From: Candidatus Caribbeanibacter nitroreducens
Lineage (GTDB): Bacteria; Gemmatimonadota; Gemmatimonadetes; Palauibacterales; Palauibacteraceae
Length of the DNA stretch: 51,610 nucleotides
Direction of reading: 5' to 3'
Assembly: GCA_947581645.1 (NCBI GenBank)
Contig: CANPVF010000134.1
Span: forward strand, 1-51,610
Both the position numbers and the translations under genes were made by a program. Below are positions 4,131 through 30,980 of the stretch, piece after piece (position 1 is the first letter of the stretch; every line of letters starts with the position of its first letter). The notes under the pieces are model-generated. The model was not told the origin of the DNA, searched no databases, and saw only the letters and a program-made list of their open reading frames with translations.

Positions 4131-5450
4131 TCACACCTCGGCCAGCGCCTGCTCCAGGTCGGCGATCAGGTCGTCCGGGCTCTCGATCCCGATGGACAGC
4201 CGGATCATGGCGTGGGAGATCCCCATCCGCTCCTTGTCCTCCGGGGGGACGTCGGCGTGGGTCATCGTGGCCGGGTGCTCGGCCAGGGACTCGGTGCTGC
4301 CCAGGCTCACGGCCAGCTTGACCAGCTTCAGGGCGTTCAGCACCCGGAAGGCCTCCTCCTCGCCGCCGTCCACCTCGAAGCTCACCATGGCGCCGGGTGC
4401 GTCGCACTGGCGTCGGTAGATCTCCTGCTGGGCGGTCCCCTCCTCCAGGTGCCCCAGGTAGTGGACCTCCTCCACGGCGGGGTGGTCCGCCAGGAAGTCG
4501 GCCACGCGGACGGCGTTCTCCGTCTGGCGCTCCATGCGGAGCTTCAGCGTCTCCAGGCTCCGCATGACCAGCCATCCGGTCCAGGGCCCCGCCATGGTGC
4601 CCATGAAGGTCCGCAGGCCCAGCACCGGCTCCAGCAGCTCCTCGGAGCCCAGGCACGCGCCGGCGATCAGGTCGCTGTGGCCGCCGACGTACTTGGTGAG
4701 CGAGTACAGGACCAGGTCGGCGCCGTGGTCCAGCGGGTGCTGCCACAGGGGGCCGAGGAAGGTGTTGTCCACCGCCACGATGGGGCGGTCCCCGTCCCCG
4801 GCGGCGGCGTCGGCCACGGCCCGGCACGCCTCCAGGTCCACCAGCGTGTTCGTGGGGTTGGCCGGGGTCTCCACGTAGATCATGGCCAGCCTGTCGCGCC
4901 CCCCGTCGAGCCGGTCCAGCGTCTCCTCGATCTCCGCGCGGTCGCTGCCCACGGGGAAGGAGACGGGCTGGATGCCGAACTCGGTGAGCACGTGCCGCAG
5001 CAGGTGGTCGGTGCCGCCGTACAGCGGCTCCGAGTGCAGGAGCACGTCGCCGGGGCGGAGATGGGCCAGGAGGGTGGTGGAGATGGCGGCCATCCCGCTC
5101 TCGAAGACGCCGGCGGCCCCGGCGTCGTCCCAGACCGTGAGCCGGTCCTCGAGGATCTCCAGGTCCGGGTTGTTGAGGCGGCTGTAGATCAGGCCCGGCG
5201 TCTCCGCGGGGTCCTGCTCGCGGAGGCCGTAGGCCACCTCGAAGAAGTCCTTCCCGTCCTCGGCGGAGTCGAAGACGAAGGTGGAGGTCTGGAAGATGGG
5301 CGACTTGAGCGCCCCCTCCGACCACTCCGGGCGGTACCCGTAGCTCATCATCAGGCTCTCGGGCGCCAGCTCCCGGTCGCCGATCCGGGTCCGGTACTGG
5401 CCGGCTCCCTCGCCCGGTCCGTCCGCTCCGTCTCCTCCGTCCGTCACGCT
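4131..5450 (-). CDS. Cystathionine gamma-synthase-family PLP enzyme
   Basis: About 439-aa member of the Cys/Met-metabolism PLP-dependent enzymes, which carry out gamma-replacement or gamma-elimination on homoserine esters, cystathionine or methionine. The PLP lysine is K252 in YSLTKYVGGHSD, and VAVDNTF carries the aspartate that contacts the pyridine nitrogen. YSRLNNP and ETPANPTN are the usual substrate/cofactor loops. The C-terminal half has the SLGSTESLAEHPATMTH segment typical of the family. The best start is a GTG at 5450 with GGGAG five bases upstream; a TTG at 5471 is possible but lacks a ribosome site. Family motifs do not separate cystathionine gamma-synthase, gamma-lyase, O-acylhomoserine sulfhydrylase or methionine gamma-lyase. 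A cystathionine beta-synthase at 21600-23006 makes a transsulfuration role plausible. Confidence 0.9.
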   Translation of the reverse strand, partial: SVTDGGDGADGPGEGAGQYRTRIGDRELAPESLMMSYGYRPEWSEGALKSPIFQTSTFVFDSAEDGKDFFEVAYGLREQDPAETPGLIYSRLNNPDLEILEDRLTVWDDAGAAGVFESGMAAISTTLLAHLRPGDVLLHSEPLYGGTDHLLRHVLTEFGIQPVSFPVGSDRAEIEETLDRLDGGRDRLAMIYVETPANPTNTLVDLEACRAVADAAAGDGDRPIVAVDNTFLGPLWQHPLDHGADLVLYSLTKYVGGHSDLIAGACLGSEELLEPVLGLRTFMGTMAGPWTGWLVMRSLETLKLRMERQTENAVRVADFLADHPAVEEVHYLGHLEEGTAQQEIYRRQCDAPGAMVSFEVDGGEEEAFRVLNALKLVKLAVSLGSTESLAEHPATMTHADVPPEDKERMGISHAMIRLSIGIESPDDLIADLEQALAEV

Positions 5451-5513
5451 GTCTCCCGTCTCAGTGTGCAAATGTGCAGAGGGCCCTGTGCGACGTCCGC
5501 GTCCGGGGCGACT

Positions 5514-6197
5514 TCAGAACCGCCGGACCGCGAGTCCGACGGAGACCCCCAGGTCGTTCTGGACCCGGTCCTCGCCGCCGGTGGGGCTCCCGTAGATCGT
5601 GACCCGGTCCCGGAGCTCGACGCGGAGCTCGAAGCGTCCGGCCAGCCGAACGTGGGCCCCGGCGGCGGCCGTGGCCATGGGATCGGTGGCGTCGGTGACC
5701 TCCGGCGAGGCGATGGCCTGGACGTCGAGGCGACGCACGCCGCCGCCCAGGGCCAGGTAGGGCCGCACCACGCTCACCTCCGGCGGCAGCGCGACCCGGT
5801 ACCGCACCTCGGCGGAGGCCGCCAGGTAGTCGGCGGAGCCGAGGTCGCTGGGGAGCGCGCCGGTGAAGTCCGTGGGGATCAGGCTGAGCTGGGCCGGGGC
5901 CCACACCCCCTGGAGCGCGACGCCCAGCCGCCGGCGGGGCCACCAGGTCCCCTCCGCACCGAACAGGGCGGAGGAGGAGATCTCCGTCTCGAAGGTCTCG
6001 GGGTCGGCCGTGAGCCGCGACAGTGGCGCCAGGACCCCGGCGAAGGCGGTGGCCTCCATCCGGGGGCCCGCCGGAGGCCGGGGATCCGGGTCCGCCCCGG
6101 CGTCGGAGACGGCCTGGGTCCGGGCCGTCTCCGGGGCGAGGAGCAGGGCGGCGGCCGCGGCGAGGAGCACGGCGTCGCGGGGGTTCGGCGGCATCAT
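5514..6197 (-). CDS. Secreted outer-membrane beta-barrel-like protein
   Basis: 227 aa with a signal peptide (hydrophobic stretch about residues 9-27, LLAAAAALLLAPETARTQA). The mature part is rich in alternating hydrophobic/polar segments (ADYLAASAEVRYRVAL, PYLALGGGVRRLDV, ELRVELRDRV) and ends in an aromatic residue (VRRF), the usual mark of an eight-strand outer-membrane barrel recognised by the BAM machinery. No specific family is recognised. It follows the metallopeptidase gene by about 30 bases on the same strand, so they may share a transcript and work at the cell surface. Two ATG codons in tandem (6197 and 6194) could start translation. Confidence 0.75.
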   Translation of the reverse strand: MMPPNPRDAVLLAAAAALLLAPETARTQAVSDAGADPDPRPPAGPRMEATAFAGVLAPLSRLTADPETFETEISSSALFGAEGTWWPRRRLGVALQGVWAPAQLSLIPTDFTGALPSDLGSADYLAASAEVRYRVALPPEVSVVRPYLALGGGVRRLDVQAIASPEVTDATDPMATAAAGAHVRLAGRFELRVELRDRVTIYGSPTGGEDRVQNDLGVSVGLAVRRF

Positions 6198-25938: not shown

Positions 25939-28029
25939 ATGGCGGCGGAAACCGACTCGGACGCACTCCGCAACGTCGCGCTCCTGGGCCACGGCGGCTC
26001 GGGGAAGACCACCCTGGCCGACGCCATGAGCTACATCTCCGGGGCCGTCTCCCGCCGCGGCTCCGTGACCGAGGGCACCGCCCACACGGACTTCACCCCC
26101 GAGGAGAGGGAGCACGGGATGTCCATCGAGCTGGGCCTGGCCCGGCTGCCGTGGATGGACGCCCGCATCAACCTGCTCGACACCCCGGGCTACCAGGACT
26201 TCTGGGGCGAGGCGCACGCCGGGGCGCGGGTGGCCGACGGAGCCGTGATCGTGGTCGACGCCGCCTCCGGCGTGGACGTGGGGACCGAGCGGGGGTGGGA
26301 GCTGTGCGACGAGCACGGCCTCCCCCGGCTCGTCTTCGTGACGGGGATGGACCGCGACAACGCCTCCTTCGAGGAGGCCTTCGACCAGATCAACGGGGCC
26401 CTCGACGACGGCGCCATCCCCGTGGAGGTGCCCATCGGCGCCGGCTCCGAGTACCGCGGCATCGTGAACCTCTTCTCCGAGCGGGCCCACTTCTACCGCG
26501 AGGAGTCGGACACCGGGGAGTACGACGAGGGGGAGATCCCGGACGAGCTCACGGACGGCGCCCACGAGTACCACCGGGAGCTCATCGAGACCATCGCCAC
26601 CACCGACGACGAGCTCCTGGAGGCCTACCTGGAGGGGGACGACCTGCCCCGCGAGCAGGTGCTGGACGCACTCTCCGGCGCCATGCTCCGGGGCGAGCTC
26701 TTCCCGGTCTTCTGCGGCTCCGGCGAGTCGGGGTGGGGCGTGCGGGCGCTGATGAAGAAGGTGGTGGAGCTCCTCCCCTCGCCGGTGGAGACGGCGCCGC
26801 ACCTGGCCGAGGGGCCCGGCGGCGACTACGTGGAGCTGGGCGGCACAGACGGCGACCCGCTGGCCGCCCTGGCCTTCAAGGTCACCTCCGAGGCCCACGC
26901 CGGCGAGCTCAGCTTCCTGCGGATCTTCTCCGGCAGCCTGGAGAACGGGGAGACCGTCTACAACCCCGGGCGGCAGGCCACGGAGCGAATGACCCACCTG
27001 AGCGTCGTCGACGGCGAGGAGCGCACCGAGGTGGACCGGCTGCACGCCGGGGACATCGGCGTGGCCGCCCGGCTCAAGGACACCCACGCCGGCGACACCC
27101 TCTGCCGCCGGGAGACGCCGGTGATCCTGGAGGGCGTGGACTGGCCGGACCCCGACATCTCCGTGGCGGTGCGCCCCGCCTCCCGGGCCCAGGAGGACAA
27201 GCTGGCCACGGGCCTCTCGGCCCTGCACGAGACGGATCCGACCTTCCGCTCGGAGTACGACGCCGAGCTGGGACAGACCATCGCCCGGGGGCTGGGCGAG
27301 CTCCACCTGACGGTCTGCCTGGAGCGCCTGGAGCGGAAGTTCGGCGTGGACGTGATCACCGAGCAGCCCCGGGTCCCGTACCGGGAGACCATCACGCAGC
27401 GGGCAGAGGGCAAGGCCCGACACAAGAAGCAGTCGGGAGGGCGCGGCCAGTTCGGGGACTGCGCCATACGGCTGGCGCCCCGGCCGCGGGGGAGCGGCTA
27501 CGAGTTCCTGGACTCCATCAAGGGCGGATCCATTCCCAGCAAGTTCATCCCGGCCGTGGACCAGGGGATCCAGGAGGCCGCCGAGGACGGCGTGCTGGCC
27601 GGCTATCCGGTGGTCGACTTCCAGGTGGAGCTCGTCGACGGCTCCCACCACTCCGTGGACAGCTCCGAGCAGGCCTTCAAGATCGCCGGGTCGAAGGCCT
27701 TCAAGAAGGTGGCGCAGGACGCCCGGCCAGTCCTCCTGGAGCCGGTGATGGACGTGGAGGTCAAGACGCCCGACGAGTACATGGGCGACGTCATCGGCGA
27801 CCTGAACGGACGCCGGGGGAGGGTGCTGGGCATCGACACCGACGGCCACTGGCAGGTGGTCCGCGCCCAGGTGCCCCAGGCCGAGCTCTACCGCTACTCG
27901 GCGGCGCTGCGCTCCATCACCCACGGCGCCGGCGCCCACACCCGCTCCTTCCACGCCTACGAGCAGGTGCCCCACGACGTGGCGCAGCAGATCATCGACG
28001 GGCGGGAGGAGCGGCGGGAGGCGTCGTAG
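25939..28029 (+). CDS. Elongation factor G-like GTPase (EF-G paralog)
   Basis: 696 aa with the five-domain order of EF-G: G1 GHGGSGKT (residues 17-24), a switch I TDFTPEEREHGMSI, switch II DTPGYQDF, then domains II-V, including the domain IV segment HKKQSGGRGQFGD. Switch I and the Tyr in DTPGY (in place of the usual catalytic His) mark it as one of the EF-G-like paralogs, not the main translocase. The G4 motif, normally NKxD, reads TGMD in FVTGMDRDN, so nucleotide specificity may be altered. Such paralogs have been linked to ribosome recycling, stress or cryptic translational roles. A hairpin follows the stop. Confidence 0.93.
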   Translation: MAAETDSDALRNVALLGHGGSGKTTLADAMSYISGAVSRRGSVTEGTAHTDFTPEEREHGMSIELGLARLPWMDARINLLDTPGYQDFWGEAHAGARVADGAVIVVDAASGVDVGTERGWELCDEHGLPRLVFVTGMDRDNASFEEAFDQINGALDDGAIPVEVPIGAGSEYRGIVNLFSERAHFYREESDTGEYDEGEIPDELTDGAHEYHRELIETIATTDDELLEAYLEGDDLPREQVLDALSGAMLRGELFPVFCGSGESGWGVRALMKKVVELLPSPVETAPHLAEGPGGDYVELGGTDGDPLAALAFKVTSEAHAGELSFLRIFSGSLENGETVYNPGRQATERMTHLSVVDGEERTEVDRLHAGDIGVAARLKDTHAGDTLCRRETPVILEGVDWPDPDISVAVRPASRAQEDKLATGLSALHETDPTFRSEYDAELGQTIARGLGELHLTVCLERLERKFGVDVITEQPRVPYRETITQRAEGKARHKKQSGGRGQFGDCAIRLAPRPRGSGYEFLDSIKGGSIPSKFIPAVDQGIQEAAEDGVLAGYPVVDFQVELVDGSHHSVDSSEQAFKIAGSKAFKKVAQDARPVLLEPVMDVEVKTPDEYMGDVIGDLNGRRGRVLGIDTDGHWQVVRAQVPQAELYRYSAALRSITHGAGAHTRSFHAYEQVPHDVAQQIIDGREERREAS

Positions 28030-28033
28030 CGTC

Positions 28034-28054
28034 GGAGGCCACACGGCGGCCTCC
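28034..28054 (+). terminator. Terminator hairpin after the EF-G paralog
   Basis: GGAGGCC-ACACGGC-GGCCTCC forms a seven-pair stem just after the stop at 28029, followed by TCGTAGAGTT. It lies between convergent genes. Confidence 0.5.
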
Positions 28055-28105
28055 TCGTAGAGTTGCTCCTTCGGGACCCCGGCCCGGCCGTCCACGGTCG
28101 GGCGC

Positions 28106-28127
28106 GACCGTCTCCGCGGGGACGGTC
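28106..28127 (-). terminator. Terminator hairpin after the minus-strand membrane gene
   Basis: GACCGTC (28106-28112) pairs with GACGGTC (28121-28127), and the stem extends inward. On the minus strand it begins right after the membrane-protein stop at 28130. Together with the hairpin at 28034 it gives each convergent gene its own stem. Confidence 0.4.
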
Positions 28128-28129
28128 GG

Positions 28130-28753
28130 TCAGTCGGTCGACGCGGCGGCTGCTCTCCAGTTCCGGTCGAAGATCAGTCCCTCGGCCATACCTCCGGCCA
28201 CAGCGATGAGCACGATGGCCGGGACCGAGCGGATCGTCCCCAGCGCCAGGTAGCAGAGCATCCCGCCGAGCAGGGCGCCGGTCGCCAGGGCCAGGGCTTC
28301 TCCGGCGACCCAGCGCCCCGCGGGAACCGGCGGGGCCGCGCCGGCGCGGAGGGCGACCCACTTCGCCAGTCCCACGCCCGCCCCGGCGAGGCTTCCCACC
28401 AGCAACAGGGCAGCCAGGTCGGCGGGCAGTCGTCCCCCTTCCAGGCCCACCGCCTCCACCAGCACCGTACCACCGGTGAGCCCGAGGGCCAGTCCGACGG
28501 CGGTGCCCGTGGTCCACAGTGCAGCGTGGACATGTTCACGCACCTCCGAGGCGAGCTGTGCGCCTCCGAGGGCGAGGCCGGCGGCGACCCCGACCACGGG
28601 GAGCACGAACATCACTCCCAGCAGGGTCTCGGTCGGCCCGGCGAGGGCGAGACCGACCGCGATGCCCGCGGCCAGTCCGGCCGCCGAGAGGAGGATTCGT
28701 CGCGCCGGAGCCGAGGCCGCGCTCGACGCGCTCGACGCGTTCGATGCATCCAT
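28130..28753 (-). CDS. Small multi-pass membrane protein, unknown function
   Basis: 207 aa. The ATG at 28753 has GGGAG seven bases upstream, so a long in-frame extension beyond it is not used. After an Ala/Ser-rich start (encoded by an imperfect 9-base repeat) the rest is very hydrophobic, with about six predicted helices (about residues 20-38, 42-65, 78-100, 112-132, 148-170, 176-194). There are few charged residues and no recognised motif. It lies downstream of the LytTR regulator gene on the same strand, 163 bases away, suggesting that it is a target or partner of that regulator. Confidence 0.75.
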   Translation of the reverse strand: MDASNASSASSAASAPARRILLSAAGLAAGIAVGLALAGPTETLLGVMFVLPVVGVAAGLALGGAQLASEVREHVHAALWTTGTAVGLALGLTGGTVLVEAVGLEGGRLPADLAALLLVGSLAGAGVGLAKWVALRAGAAPPVPAGRWVAGEALALATGALLGGMLCYLALGTIRSVPAIVLIAVAGGMAEGLIFDRNWRAAAASTD

Positions 28754-28916
28754 GGAAGTGCTCCCGTCGGAGGAGAAGGAGTTCGTCCGGCGCCGCCGGG
28801 AACGTCCCGGCACCGTGACACAACGGACGCCTGCCCTCCCTCCCCCACCAGACGCCGATCGACGAAACCGGCCGAATCCGTCGTGGAACTGTGCTTTCGC
28901 GTTGCGGGGGCGTGGG

Positions 28917-29816
28917 CTAATCGCCGATGGATCCCCCGGTGGCACCGACGGCGCTCTCGAGCCGGTCGGTGCGGCTCGCGGCGACGCGTACGGAGGTGCC
29001 GTCCGCCAGCCGGGCCCGGAGCGCACCGCGCCCGGCGGACTCGAGCGACTCCAGGTGCCGGAGGTTGACGATGGACGAGCGGTGCACACGGAGGAAGCCG
29101 GCGGGTTCCAGCCGGCGGGCGAGCTCCGTCAGCGTCTCGCGGGTCAGGTGGGAGGTGCCTTCCAGGTGGACGCGAGCGTACGAGCCGGCGCCCTCGATCC
29201 ACAGGATCTCCTGCACGGGGATCAGCTCCACCCGATCGCCCGCCCGGACCGGGAGCCGCTGGAGCTCCGACGTGGTCGTTGACCCGGCCCGCACGGCGGG
29301 GTCGCCCGGGGGGAAGCGGCCGGACCGCCGCCTCACCGTCGCCACCAGCGCACCGAGCATGGCCGCGTAGAGCAGGAGGTCCGCCTGCAGCTGCCAGGGG
29401 CCGGCGTGGCGCCACCACAGCTCGAGCTGGGCCAGCGGAACGGAGCCGATCTCCACGAGGAGGGAGACGGAGAGGGCCGACGCCCGCACGAGCACCACCA
29501 GGAGGACGCCCAGGGCGGCGTGCACGCCGAGGGTGAGGGCGTCTCTCCCGCCGATCCCTCCGATCGAGGCCAGGCGCTGCGCCTGGAAGCGCGCCACCGG
29601 CAGGGCCAGAGCCAGCAGCAGGCTCCCGAGCGCCGCGAATCCGGCGGCCGCCAGGAGCGAGTCCTGGCCCGGCCCGAGGACGATGCCGCCGGCGACGGCG
29701 CCCCACTGGAGGAGACCGGCGAGCGCGGCCGCGGCGAGCCAGGAGGCGACCGTGGTTCCGTCGTCGAGGGCTTCCGGCTGGACCGTCCGGCTGGTCGGGG
29801 CGGCGGTGGGGGTCAT
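28917..29816 (-). CDS. Membrane-anchored LytTR-domain transcription regulator
   Basis: 299 aa. The N-terminal ~165 residues hold three or four membrane helices (about 24-46, 51-77, 93-125, 145-161). The C-terminal part (about 186-287) is a LytTR DNA-binding domain: LPVRAGDRVELIPVQEILWI, then the region with FLRVHRSSIVNLRHLE and GTSVRVAASR. No receiver or kinase domain is present, so it fits the class of membrane-embedded LytTR regulators that work without a two-component partner. The ATG at 29816 has GGAGGG seven bases upstream. In related two-gene LytTR systems the second gene is a small membrane protein that inhibits the regulator; the gene at 28130 is a candidate, but this is inference. 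Confidence 0.9.
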   Translation of the reverse strand: MTPTAAPTSRTVQPEALDDGTTVASWLAAAALAGLLQWGAVAGGIVLGPGQDSLLAAAGFAALGSLLLALALPVARFQAQRLASIGGIGGRDALTLGVHAALGVLLVVLVRASALSVSLLVEIGSVPLAQLELWWRHAGPWQLQADLLLYAAMLGALVATVRRRSGRFPPGDPAVRAGSTTTSELQRLPVRAGDRVELIPVQEILWIEGAGSYARVHLEGTSHLTRETLTELARRLEPAGFLRVHRSSIVNLRHLESLESAGRGALRARLADGTSVRVAASRTDRLESAVGATGGSIGD

Positions 29817-29933
29817 GGTCGTACCCTCCGATTTCGTCCGGAGCTGTTGGCGCGGGCCCTCCCGTGTCTCCAATGTGGGGCCTCGAGGCCGAGCGTGCCG
29901 TCCAGCCCGGAGGAGGGAGCACCCGCGCGGTGA

Positions 29934-30116
29934 TCGTGCCAGGCGACGGCCGCCGGACGACTCGCCGCCGGGGACTGGTGGGGCGCCGGAGGGGCGCTGG
30001 CCGTCAACCTCCTCGTGAACGCGTATCCCGTCCTGATCCAGCGCTACAACAGGATCCGGCTCCTCCGTCTCTTCGACCTGGACCCCGGCACTCGTCCCGG
30101 GAATTCGGGTACGTGA
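29934..30116 (+). pseudogene. C-terminal remnant of a CrtO/'QRYNR' acyltransferase-like membrane protein
   Basis: The frame beginning after a stop at 29931 reads through DWWGAGGALAVNLLVNAYPV and LIQRYNRIRLLRLFDLDPG to a TGA at 30114. The segment ending in QRYNR followed by basic/leucine residues is a hallmark of the last membrane helix and tail of the glycosyl-diaponeurosporenoate acyltransferase (CrtO)-like family. No start codon, ribosome site or upstream conserved half is visible in any frame, so it is read as a gene fossil. The whole stretch 29817-30227 (411 bases) holds no other gene. This call rests on motif memory and needs a homology search. Confidence 0.45.
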
Positions 30117-30227
30117 GGCGGGCGAGGGACGGCGCCCGGCAACGCGCGCCCCGGCCGCCTCGATTCCTCCCCCCGATCGCACGACGTTCCCGTCGCGGCT
30201 CCTTCAACGCCAGCGAGGTGGTGGCAC

Positions 30228-30980
30228 TTGGCCGGTCACAACAAGTGGTCGAAGATCAAGCGCAAGAAGAAGAAGAACGACCGCCAGAAGAGCCGCATCT
30301 GGGGGAAGCTCAGTCGCGAGATCACGGTGGCCGCCCGCGAGGGAGGCGGCGATCCCGAGTACAACCCCCGGCTCCGCACCGCCATCGAGAACGCGGAGTC
30401 GGAGGAGATGCCCAGCGACACCATCGAGCGCGCCATCAAGCGCGGCACCGGCGAGCTCGAGGGCGTCGACTACGAGGAGTACTCCTACGAGGGCTACGGC
30501 CCCGGGGGCGCGGCGCTCTACCTGGAGTGCCTCACCGACAACCAGAACCGCACGGTCCAGGAGATCCGCAACATCCTGGAGGAGTACGGCGGCAACCTGG
30601 GGCAGGACGGCTCGGTGGCCTGGATGTTCGACCGGAAGGGCCAGATCTACCTGGACGGCGACCGCTACACCGAGGAGGCGGCCTTCGAGGCGGCCCTGGC
30701 CGCCGGCGCGGAGGACATGTCGCCCCTGAACGGCAGCTACGTCATCACCACCGCCACGCAGGACTTCCACGACGTCCAGGAGTCCCTGAAGAAGCAGGGG
30801 ATCAGCTTCGACGAGGCCCGGCTCGAGATGGTGCCGGACTCCACCATGGACGTGGACGGCGACGACGCCGGCCGTCTCCTGGACCTCCTGGAGGAGCTCG
30901 AGGACCACGACGACGTCCAGCACGTCTACTCGAACTTCGAGATCGACGGCGCCGAGACGGTCAGCGTCGACGCCTCCTGA
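30228..30980 (+). CDS. YebC/PmpR family transcription/translation regulator
   Basis: 250-aa YebC-family protein. It starts with MAGHNKWSKIKRKKKKNDRQ, the strongly conserved, basic N-terminal segment of the family. Three domains follow, including the acidic central part (YEGYGPGGAALYLECLTDNQNRT and NGGNL-type loop EYGGNLGQDGSVAWMF). The TTG start at 30228 is supported by GAGGTGG upstream. Members act as DNA-binding regulators or, in recent work, as ribosome-associated factors at polyproline stalls. Its place directly before ruvC is the common one. Confidence 0.95.
   Translation: MAGHNKWSKIKRKKKKNDRQKSRIWGKLSREITVAAREGGGDPEYNPRLRTAIENAESEEMPSDTIERAIKRGTGELEGVDYEEYSYEGYGPGGAALYLECLTDNQNRTVQEIRNILEEYGGNLGQDGSVAWMFDRKGQIYLDGDRYTEEAAFEAALAAGAEDMSPLNGSYVITTATQDFHDVQESLKKQGISFDEARLEMVPDSTMDVDGDDAGRLLDLLEELEDHDDVQHVYSNFEIDGAETVSVDAS

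Follow-up and report, generated by a model that had tools for sequence, protein, structure and literature searches.

Introduction

In the LytTR regulatory systems (LRS) the gene for a LytTR regulator, which is a soluble protein in systems of the S. mutans type, lies upstream of the gene for a membrane inhibitor, and direct repeats precede the operon (Zou et al. 2018, PMC6193735). The same paper describes LRS-like operons of Bacteroides in which the LytTR proteins carry several membrane segments. The membrane proteins of LRS usually have three or four helices (PMC13384398). A different arrangement is seen in HigX from Caulobacter crescentus, a membrane-located protein that joins four helices to a LytTR domain and requires its membrane domain (Brejndal et al. 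2026, PMC13384398); the term 'fused LRS' has been proposed for it, and it has been called the first characterised four-helix LytTR regulator from alpha-proteobacteria (PMC13384398). CoxC is an MHYT-LytTR repressor (Durante-Rodriguez et al. 2024, PMC11347149), and a TTR survey mentions LytTR proteins with membrane segments (PMC10269533).

Here a minus-strand gene pair from Candidatus Caribbeanibacter nitroreducens, which is placed in Gemmatimonadota (order Palauibacterales) and, through its relatives, in the same family as Ca. Palauibacter, is compared with these systems. The window is the whole stretch of 51,610 nucleotides that was analysed, and a preliminary description had proposed that the pair forms a two-gene system in which a membrane protein restrains a membrane-bound LytTR regulator. 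A literature search judged by titles, in which subscription journals were mostly outside coverage, gave no paper on this pair or on four-helix LytTR regulators in Gemmatimonadota. A single paper mentioned LytTR together with gemmatimonads and, to judge from its title, lists transferred genes.

Results

Organization of the locus

The features of the locus are listed in Table 1.

Table 1. Positions of the genes, domains and other features at the locus, numbered from the first nucleotide of the window.
Feature	Position	Strand	Basis or remark
EF-G-like GTPase gene, left border	25939..28029	+	Pfam EF-G domains
Lineage-specific 2.2-kb insertion	28030..30227		Border genes adjoin in 28 of 29 loci from relatives
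Six-helix membrane protein gene, 207 aa	28130..28753	-	ORF, hydropathy
163-bp spacer between regulator and six-helix genes	28754..28916	-	Could accommodate a promoter of its own
Transmembrane LytTR regulator gene, 299 aa	28917..29816	-	ORF and translation, PF04397, four helices
LytTR DNA-binding domain, residues 195-289	28950..29234	-	Pfam, structure model, Foldseek
Four-helix membrane domain, residues about 25-163	29328..29744	-	Hydropathy, AlphaFold2 model, loop charges
Ribosome-binding-site-like GGAGGG before regulator ATG	29824..29829	-	Sequence
CrtO-type acyltransferase remnant, C-terminal end, front part missing	29934..30116	+	PF18927 positions 95-121 of 123
Right border, yebC gene with TTG as its listed start	30228..30980	+	ORF

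The right-border gene, which we take by name to be YebC, was matched in all 34 genomes of the family sample, this genome included. Loci from 29 of the 33 yebC-bearing relatives were compared (all but G008, G015, G024 and G032), and in 28 of them the EF-G-like gene lay directly before yebC at gaps of 2 to about 136 bp, while the 29th (L176) held only 2 bp upstream of yebC. Since the borders adjoin in these 28 loci, the 2.2 kb between them is extra DNA. Neither the regulator gene nor the six-helix gene had a match in the 29 loci.

The CrtO-type remnant matched PF18927 with an E value of 1.4e-8 (35.6 bits, cut-off 27.3). CrtO is present in 4 of 198 class genomes, including this one, where a longer copy is carried on contig C131. 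The G+C content at codon positions 1/2/3 was 0.78/0.56/0.93 in the regulator gene and 0.78/0.60/0.84 in the six-helix gene, with a third-position value (GC3) of 0.98 in both flanking genes. From the insertion, the CrtO tail and the drop in GC3 relative to the flanks, the island can be read as acquired DNA. No flanking repeats resembling mobile-element ends were found at the ends of the insertion.

The absence of the insertion from the relatives' loci, the loss of the front part of the CrtO remnant and the low GC3 of the six-helix gene would also fit an island of decaying, horizontally acquired DNA in which neither gene matters now. This is improbable, given that both frames are open and code-like, that the LytTR consensus motif is kept and that the regulator has a good ribosome-binding site. 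Both genes look truly coding from their codon-position G+C, and the six-helix gene also from its protein relatives.

The regulator and its DNA-binding domain

The regulator gene runs from an ATG at 29816 to a stop at 28917-28919. A LytTR DNA-binding domain attached to three or four membrane helices had been described for its product, and the analysis bore this out with the count fixed at four: PF04397 was matched with an E value of 1.1e-19 (70.9 bits, cut-off 22.6). The lack of a receiver or kinase likewise held in searches of Pfam and NCBIfam, in which neither domain was found. The basic HRS motif of the LytTR domain is intact. AlphaFold2 models of four four-helix LytTR proteins gave a pLDDT of about 84-95 for the LytTR part, for which Foldseek returned 3d6w (E 7e-9) and the LytTR domains of AgrA, among them 3bs1 (E 6e-5), an entry titled as DNA-bound. 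Residues 162-182 had low pLDDT and are predicted to form a disordered or flexible linker. The protein is predicted to reside in the membrane and to bind promoters.

The membrane domain

Four hydropathy peaks were located at residues 29-47, 54-72, 103-121 and 143-161, and the model placed helices at 21-46, 52-86, 90-123 and 128-166 with no periplasmic domain predicted. These four long helices were modelled poorly, at a pLDDT of about 50-70. The loop charges fit a topology with both ends in the cytoplasm. No MHYT-like motif was found in the membrane part. When the membrane domain alone was searched against 295 class genomes no convincing sequence homologue was obtained, the best foreign match (E 1.1e-5) lying in a 772-residue frame and the next reaching 6e-4; with this result and the poor model, a sensing role for the domain rests on analogy.

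Residues 1-175 scored 0.5 bits against a profile of LytS-type kinases, at rank 55-56 of about 360 sequences including decoys and shuffles, and 6.5 bits at rank 11, with decoys above, when the profile was enlarged with the proteins of genomes G141 and G199. The fragment containing helices 3-4 scored 12.7 bits on the first profile and 16.0 bits on the enlarged one, and was outscored on both by an ORF from L076 in the decoy set (23.5 and 16.9 bits). For the membrane domain in the window, an origin from a LytS-type kinase sensor is suggestive only.

LytTR regulators in the genome and the class

The genome contains three LytTR genes, of which the other two are in frames with a receiver-type N-terminus as assigned by a motif rule. 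LytTR genes were found in 108 of 246 class genomes. A simple motif and hydropathy rule sorted 79 distinct LytTR rows into 69 of receiver type, 4 of membrane type and 6 others; one of these others, L136, is nevertheless of membrane type, since inspection by eye shows four hydrophobic stretches in its sequence and its membrane domain is kinase-like. The counts among the 79 rows make the membrane form a recurring minority form.

Four further genomes of Gemmatimonadota (G090, G230, G141 and G199) encode proteins that share the four-helix LytTR architecture with the regulator in the window but differ in membrane sequence and in neighbours. The LytTR genes of G090 and G230 (L132 and L134, about 4200-6100) are related to each other, and each is divergent from a PD40-repeat (propeller) gene. 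The G141 gene (L136, 5072-5863) has amino-acid permease genes on both sides, and the G199 gene has a cupin-like gene downstream that falls below the Pfam cut-off. These differing neighbours indicate that the regulator type occurs without a fixed partner.

The PD40 context of L132 and L134 is conserved, and the PD40 gene may be a target of the LytTR regulator there.

The G141 protein has a membrane domain that clearly belongs to the LytS-type kinases (E 1.6e-18), which makes it a candidate for a sensor fused directly to a DNA-binding part. The G199 membrane domain scored 15.8 bits on the kinase profile, and its LytTR domain is 47% identical to that of the regulator in the window. In a LytTR tree the latter was placed near the G199 protein and the regulator on contig C14 of its own genome, with weak support (88/25). 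The tree was built from 79 rows with few columns and its bootstrap had not settled; with such support, the tree by itself does not show the four-helix form as one clade.

The six-helix protein

A small six-helix membrane protein encoded downstream on the minus strand, belonging to no named partner family, had been described, and both points were confirmed. The 207 residues show six hydropathy peaks, no Pfam or NCBIfam family was matched up to an E value of 5, and DUF3021, DUF2154 and any other Pfam domain were absent. A Pfam search with the family of this protein gave MtrF alone, at E 0.06 and in one of six members.

Relatives aligned at 36-39% identity over most of the length. They were found in 7 of 100 related genomes, a count that includes the protein itself and one chance match, and in 15 of 395 across the phylum with weak matches included. 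The five named records came from metagenome-assembled genomes (MAGs) labelled Gemmatimonadota (three), Acidobacteriota and Chloroflexota. A match in G024 (E 7.4e-4) was dropped as chance, being a different frame of 120 aa; the gene that it adjoins presumably resembles a transhydrogenase subunit.

Within the close family the two halves of the protein align as a tandem three-helix repeat, a score reached by none of 1000 plain shuffles and by 2 of 1000 shuffles that kept the hydropathy pattern. The halves of the protein in the window align weakly (27 and 32 of 1000 shuffles as high). The structure model of the six-helix protein was poor (mean pLDDT 56.3, pTM 0.38).

The family was present in 16 of 18 loci checked, corresponding to 13 distinct places when L041/L159, L043/L160 and L162/L167 were each taken as the same contig and counted once; the two weak matches L168 and L169 gave no family match by tblastn. 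Its neighbours elsewhere, named by eye, include photolyase-like, VWA-like and macro-domain-like genes, and the flanks are short at several loci that end soon (L045, L161).

A separate observation concerns a set of close relatives (L041 6811-7452, L042, L043, L044, L158, L161 and L163-L167) with about 88-97% protein identity to their consensus. Their surroundings are unrelated, and the MAGs that contain them bear the labels of different families and phyla. Several pairs share about 90% DNA identity over only about 680-740 bp, a stretch that begins 20-64 bp before the ATG and ends just past the stop, which looks as though one gene spreads in the form of a small mobile cassette.

Relationship between the two genes

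The proposed regulator and inhibitor pair fared less well than its parts. No LytTR match at E 1e-3 was found in the 18 loci checked for the six-helix family, so that a LytTR gene stood at none of the 13 six-helix places, and conversely no small six-helix partner was found around any of the four other four-helix LytTR genes (G090, G230, G141 and G199). The relatives searched included no genome of the same genus, and the pairing may therefore be peculiar to this lineage. The gap from the regulator to the six-helix gene is wide for a tight operon; co-transcription is possible, as the genes share a strand and no terminator was detected between them.

Direct repeats with units of 9-11 bp and a spacing of 10-13 bp were counted and compared with shuffled sequence; those of LRS have units of 9-11 bp and a spacing of 11-13 bp. 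The check suggested for conserved repeats upstream of 29816 gave five pairs against a shuffle mean of 3.5, with 25% of shuffles as high, which is chance level. The spacer held three pairs, where shuffled versions averaged 0.9 and 15% of them reached as many. A LytTR consensus had no match in either non-coding stretch. A sigma-70 promoter and terminator scan gave no match in the spacer and nothing useful, a test limited by high G+C (0.69 over 28754-28918) and unknown promoter types. A search of the genome with an arbitrary inverted-repeat pattern returned one palindrome, on another contig and irrelevant here.

These results bear on an LRS-like system in which the six-helix protein would hold the regulator inactive and loss of inhibition would start positive feedback on the operon. 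A regulator gene followed by a membrane-protein gene on one strand is the order of LRS operons, and the Bacteroides LRS-like operons have multi-segment membrane LytTR proteins (PMC6193735). The neighbours are not conserved in the loci compared, the partner lacks DUF3021, DUF2154 and every other Pfam domain, the direct repeats are at chance level and the genes are 163 bp apart; the partner also has six helices, against the three or four usual for LRS membrane proteins (PMC13384398). Such a system is improbable, and from the sequence comparisons a two-gene system was not supported by any test run.

The six-helix gene might instead be a local target of the regulator, its product acting as an effector of a membrane or envelope response and not as a sensor. 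The adjacency of the genes on the same strand and a spacer able to hold a promoter agree with this, but the spacer has neither a recognisable operator, its repeat pairs being matched by the stated share of shuffles, nor a promoter match, and the proposal is considered somewhat unlikely.

Discussion

The probable product of the regulator gene is a transmembrane LytTR regulator of the HigX kind that works as a single protein. Its six-helix neighbour is probably not a dedicated inhibitor, and both genes lie on an insertion of this lineage. Most likely the six-helix gene is either a passenger or under regulation.

HigX and, by prediction, the regulator in the window begin with four membrane helices and lack a periplasmic domain; in both a short linker of low complexity leads to the LytTR domain at the C-terminus, and both are without a receiver, a kinase or a fixed partner. 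HigX belongs to another phylum and binds cell-envelope promoters, and the likeness is one of architecture. The resemblance to the LRS pairs HdrRM and BrsRM lies in the order of the genes, a LytTR gene and then a membrane-protein gene; in those systems (PMC6193735) the regulators are soluble, the partners searched for carry DUF3021 or DUF2154 (except for SMU_295 homologues) and direct repeats lie before the operon, none of which is found here. CoxC likewise combines a membrane sensor and LytTR in one protein, whereas the protein in the window is without an MHYT-like motif. Compared with the LytR/AgrA response regulators the receiver domain is missing, and compared with the LytS-type kinases of Gemmatimonadota the kinase core is missing, the similarity of the membrane parts being suggestive only.

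For a single-protein regulator the following mechanism may be proposed. Both ends of the protein would lie in the cytoplasm, and by analogy the four-helix bundle would sense either a small ligand soluble in the membrane or the membrane's own state. Sensing would alter how the LytTR domain dimerises or how stable it is, and this domain would bind promoter DNA from the membrane with no phosphorylation. The six-helix protein would be the product of an accessory membrane gene that came along as a passenger on this insertion or that the regulator possibly controls. In this lineage the whole piece, with the CrtO-type tail, would have entered between the EF-G-like gene and yebC.

This finding would extend the range of four-helix LytTR regulators to Gemmatimonadota, and the list of LRS-type pairs would lose one candidate. 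It is also conceivable, though we offer this tentatively and with more doubt than confidence, that LytTR regulators of Gemmatimonadota arose more than once by the joining of a LytS-type four-helix sensor to a DNA-binding domain, skipping the kinase and receiver, and that the protein in the window is one such regulator carried on a small insertion. Such a fusion would be a short-circuited two-component system, in which reading of the membrane and binding of DNA are combined in one protein. If this is true, a kinase with its response regulator could be set against a direct fusion made from related parts, which would allow the question of what phosphorylation adds to be asked directly.
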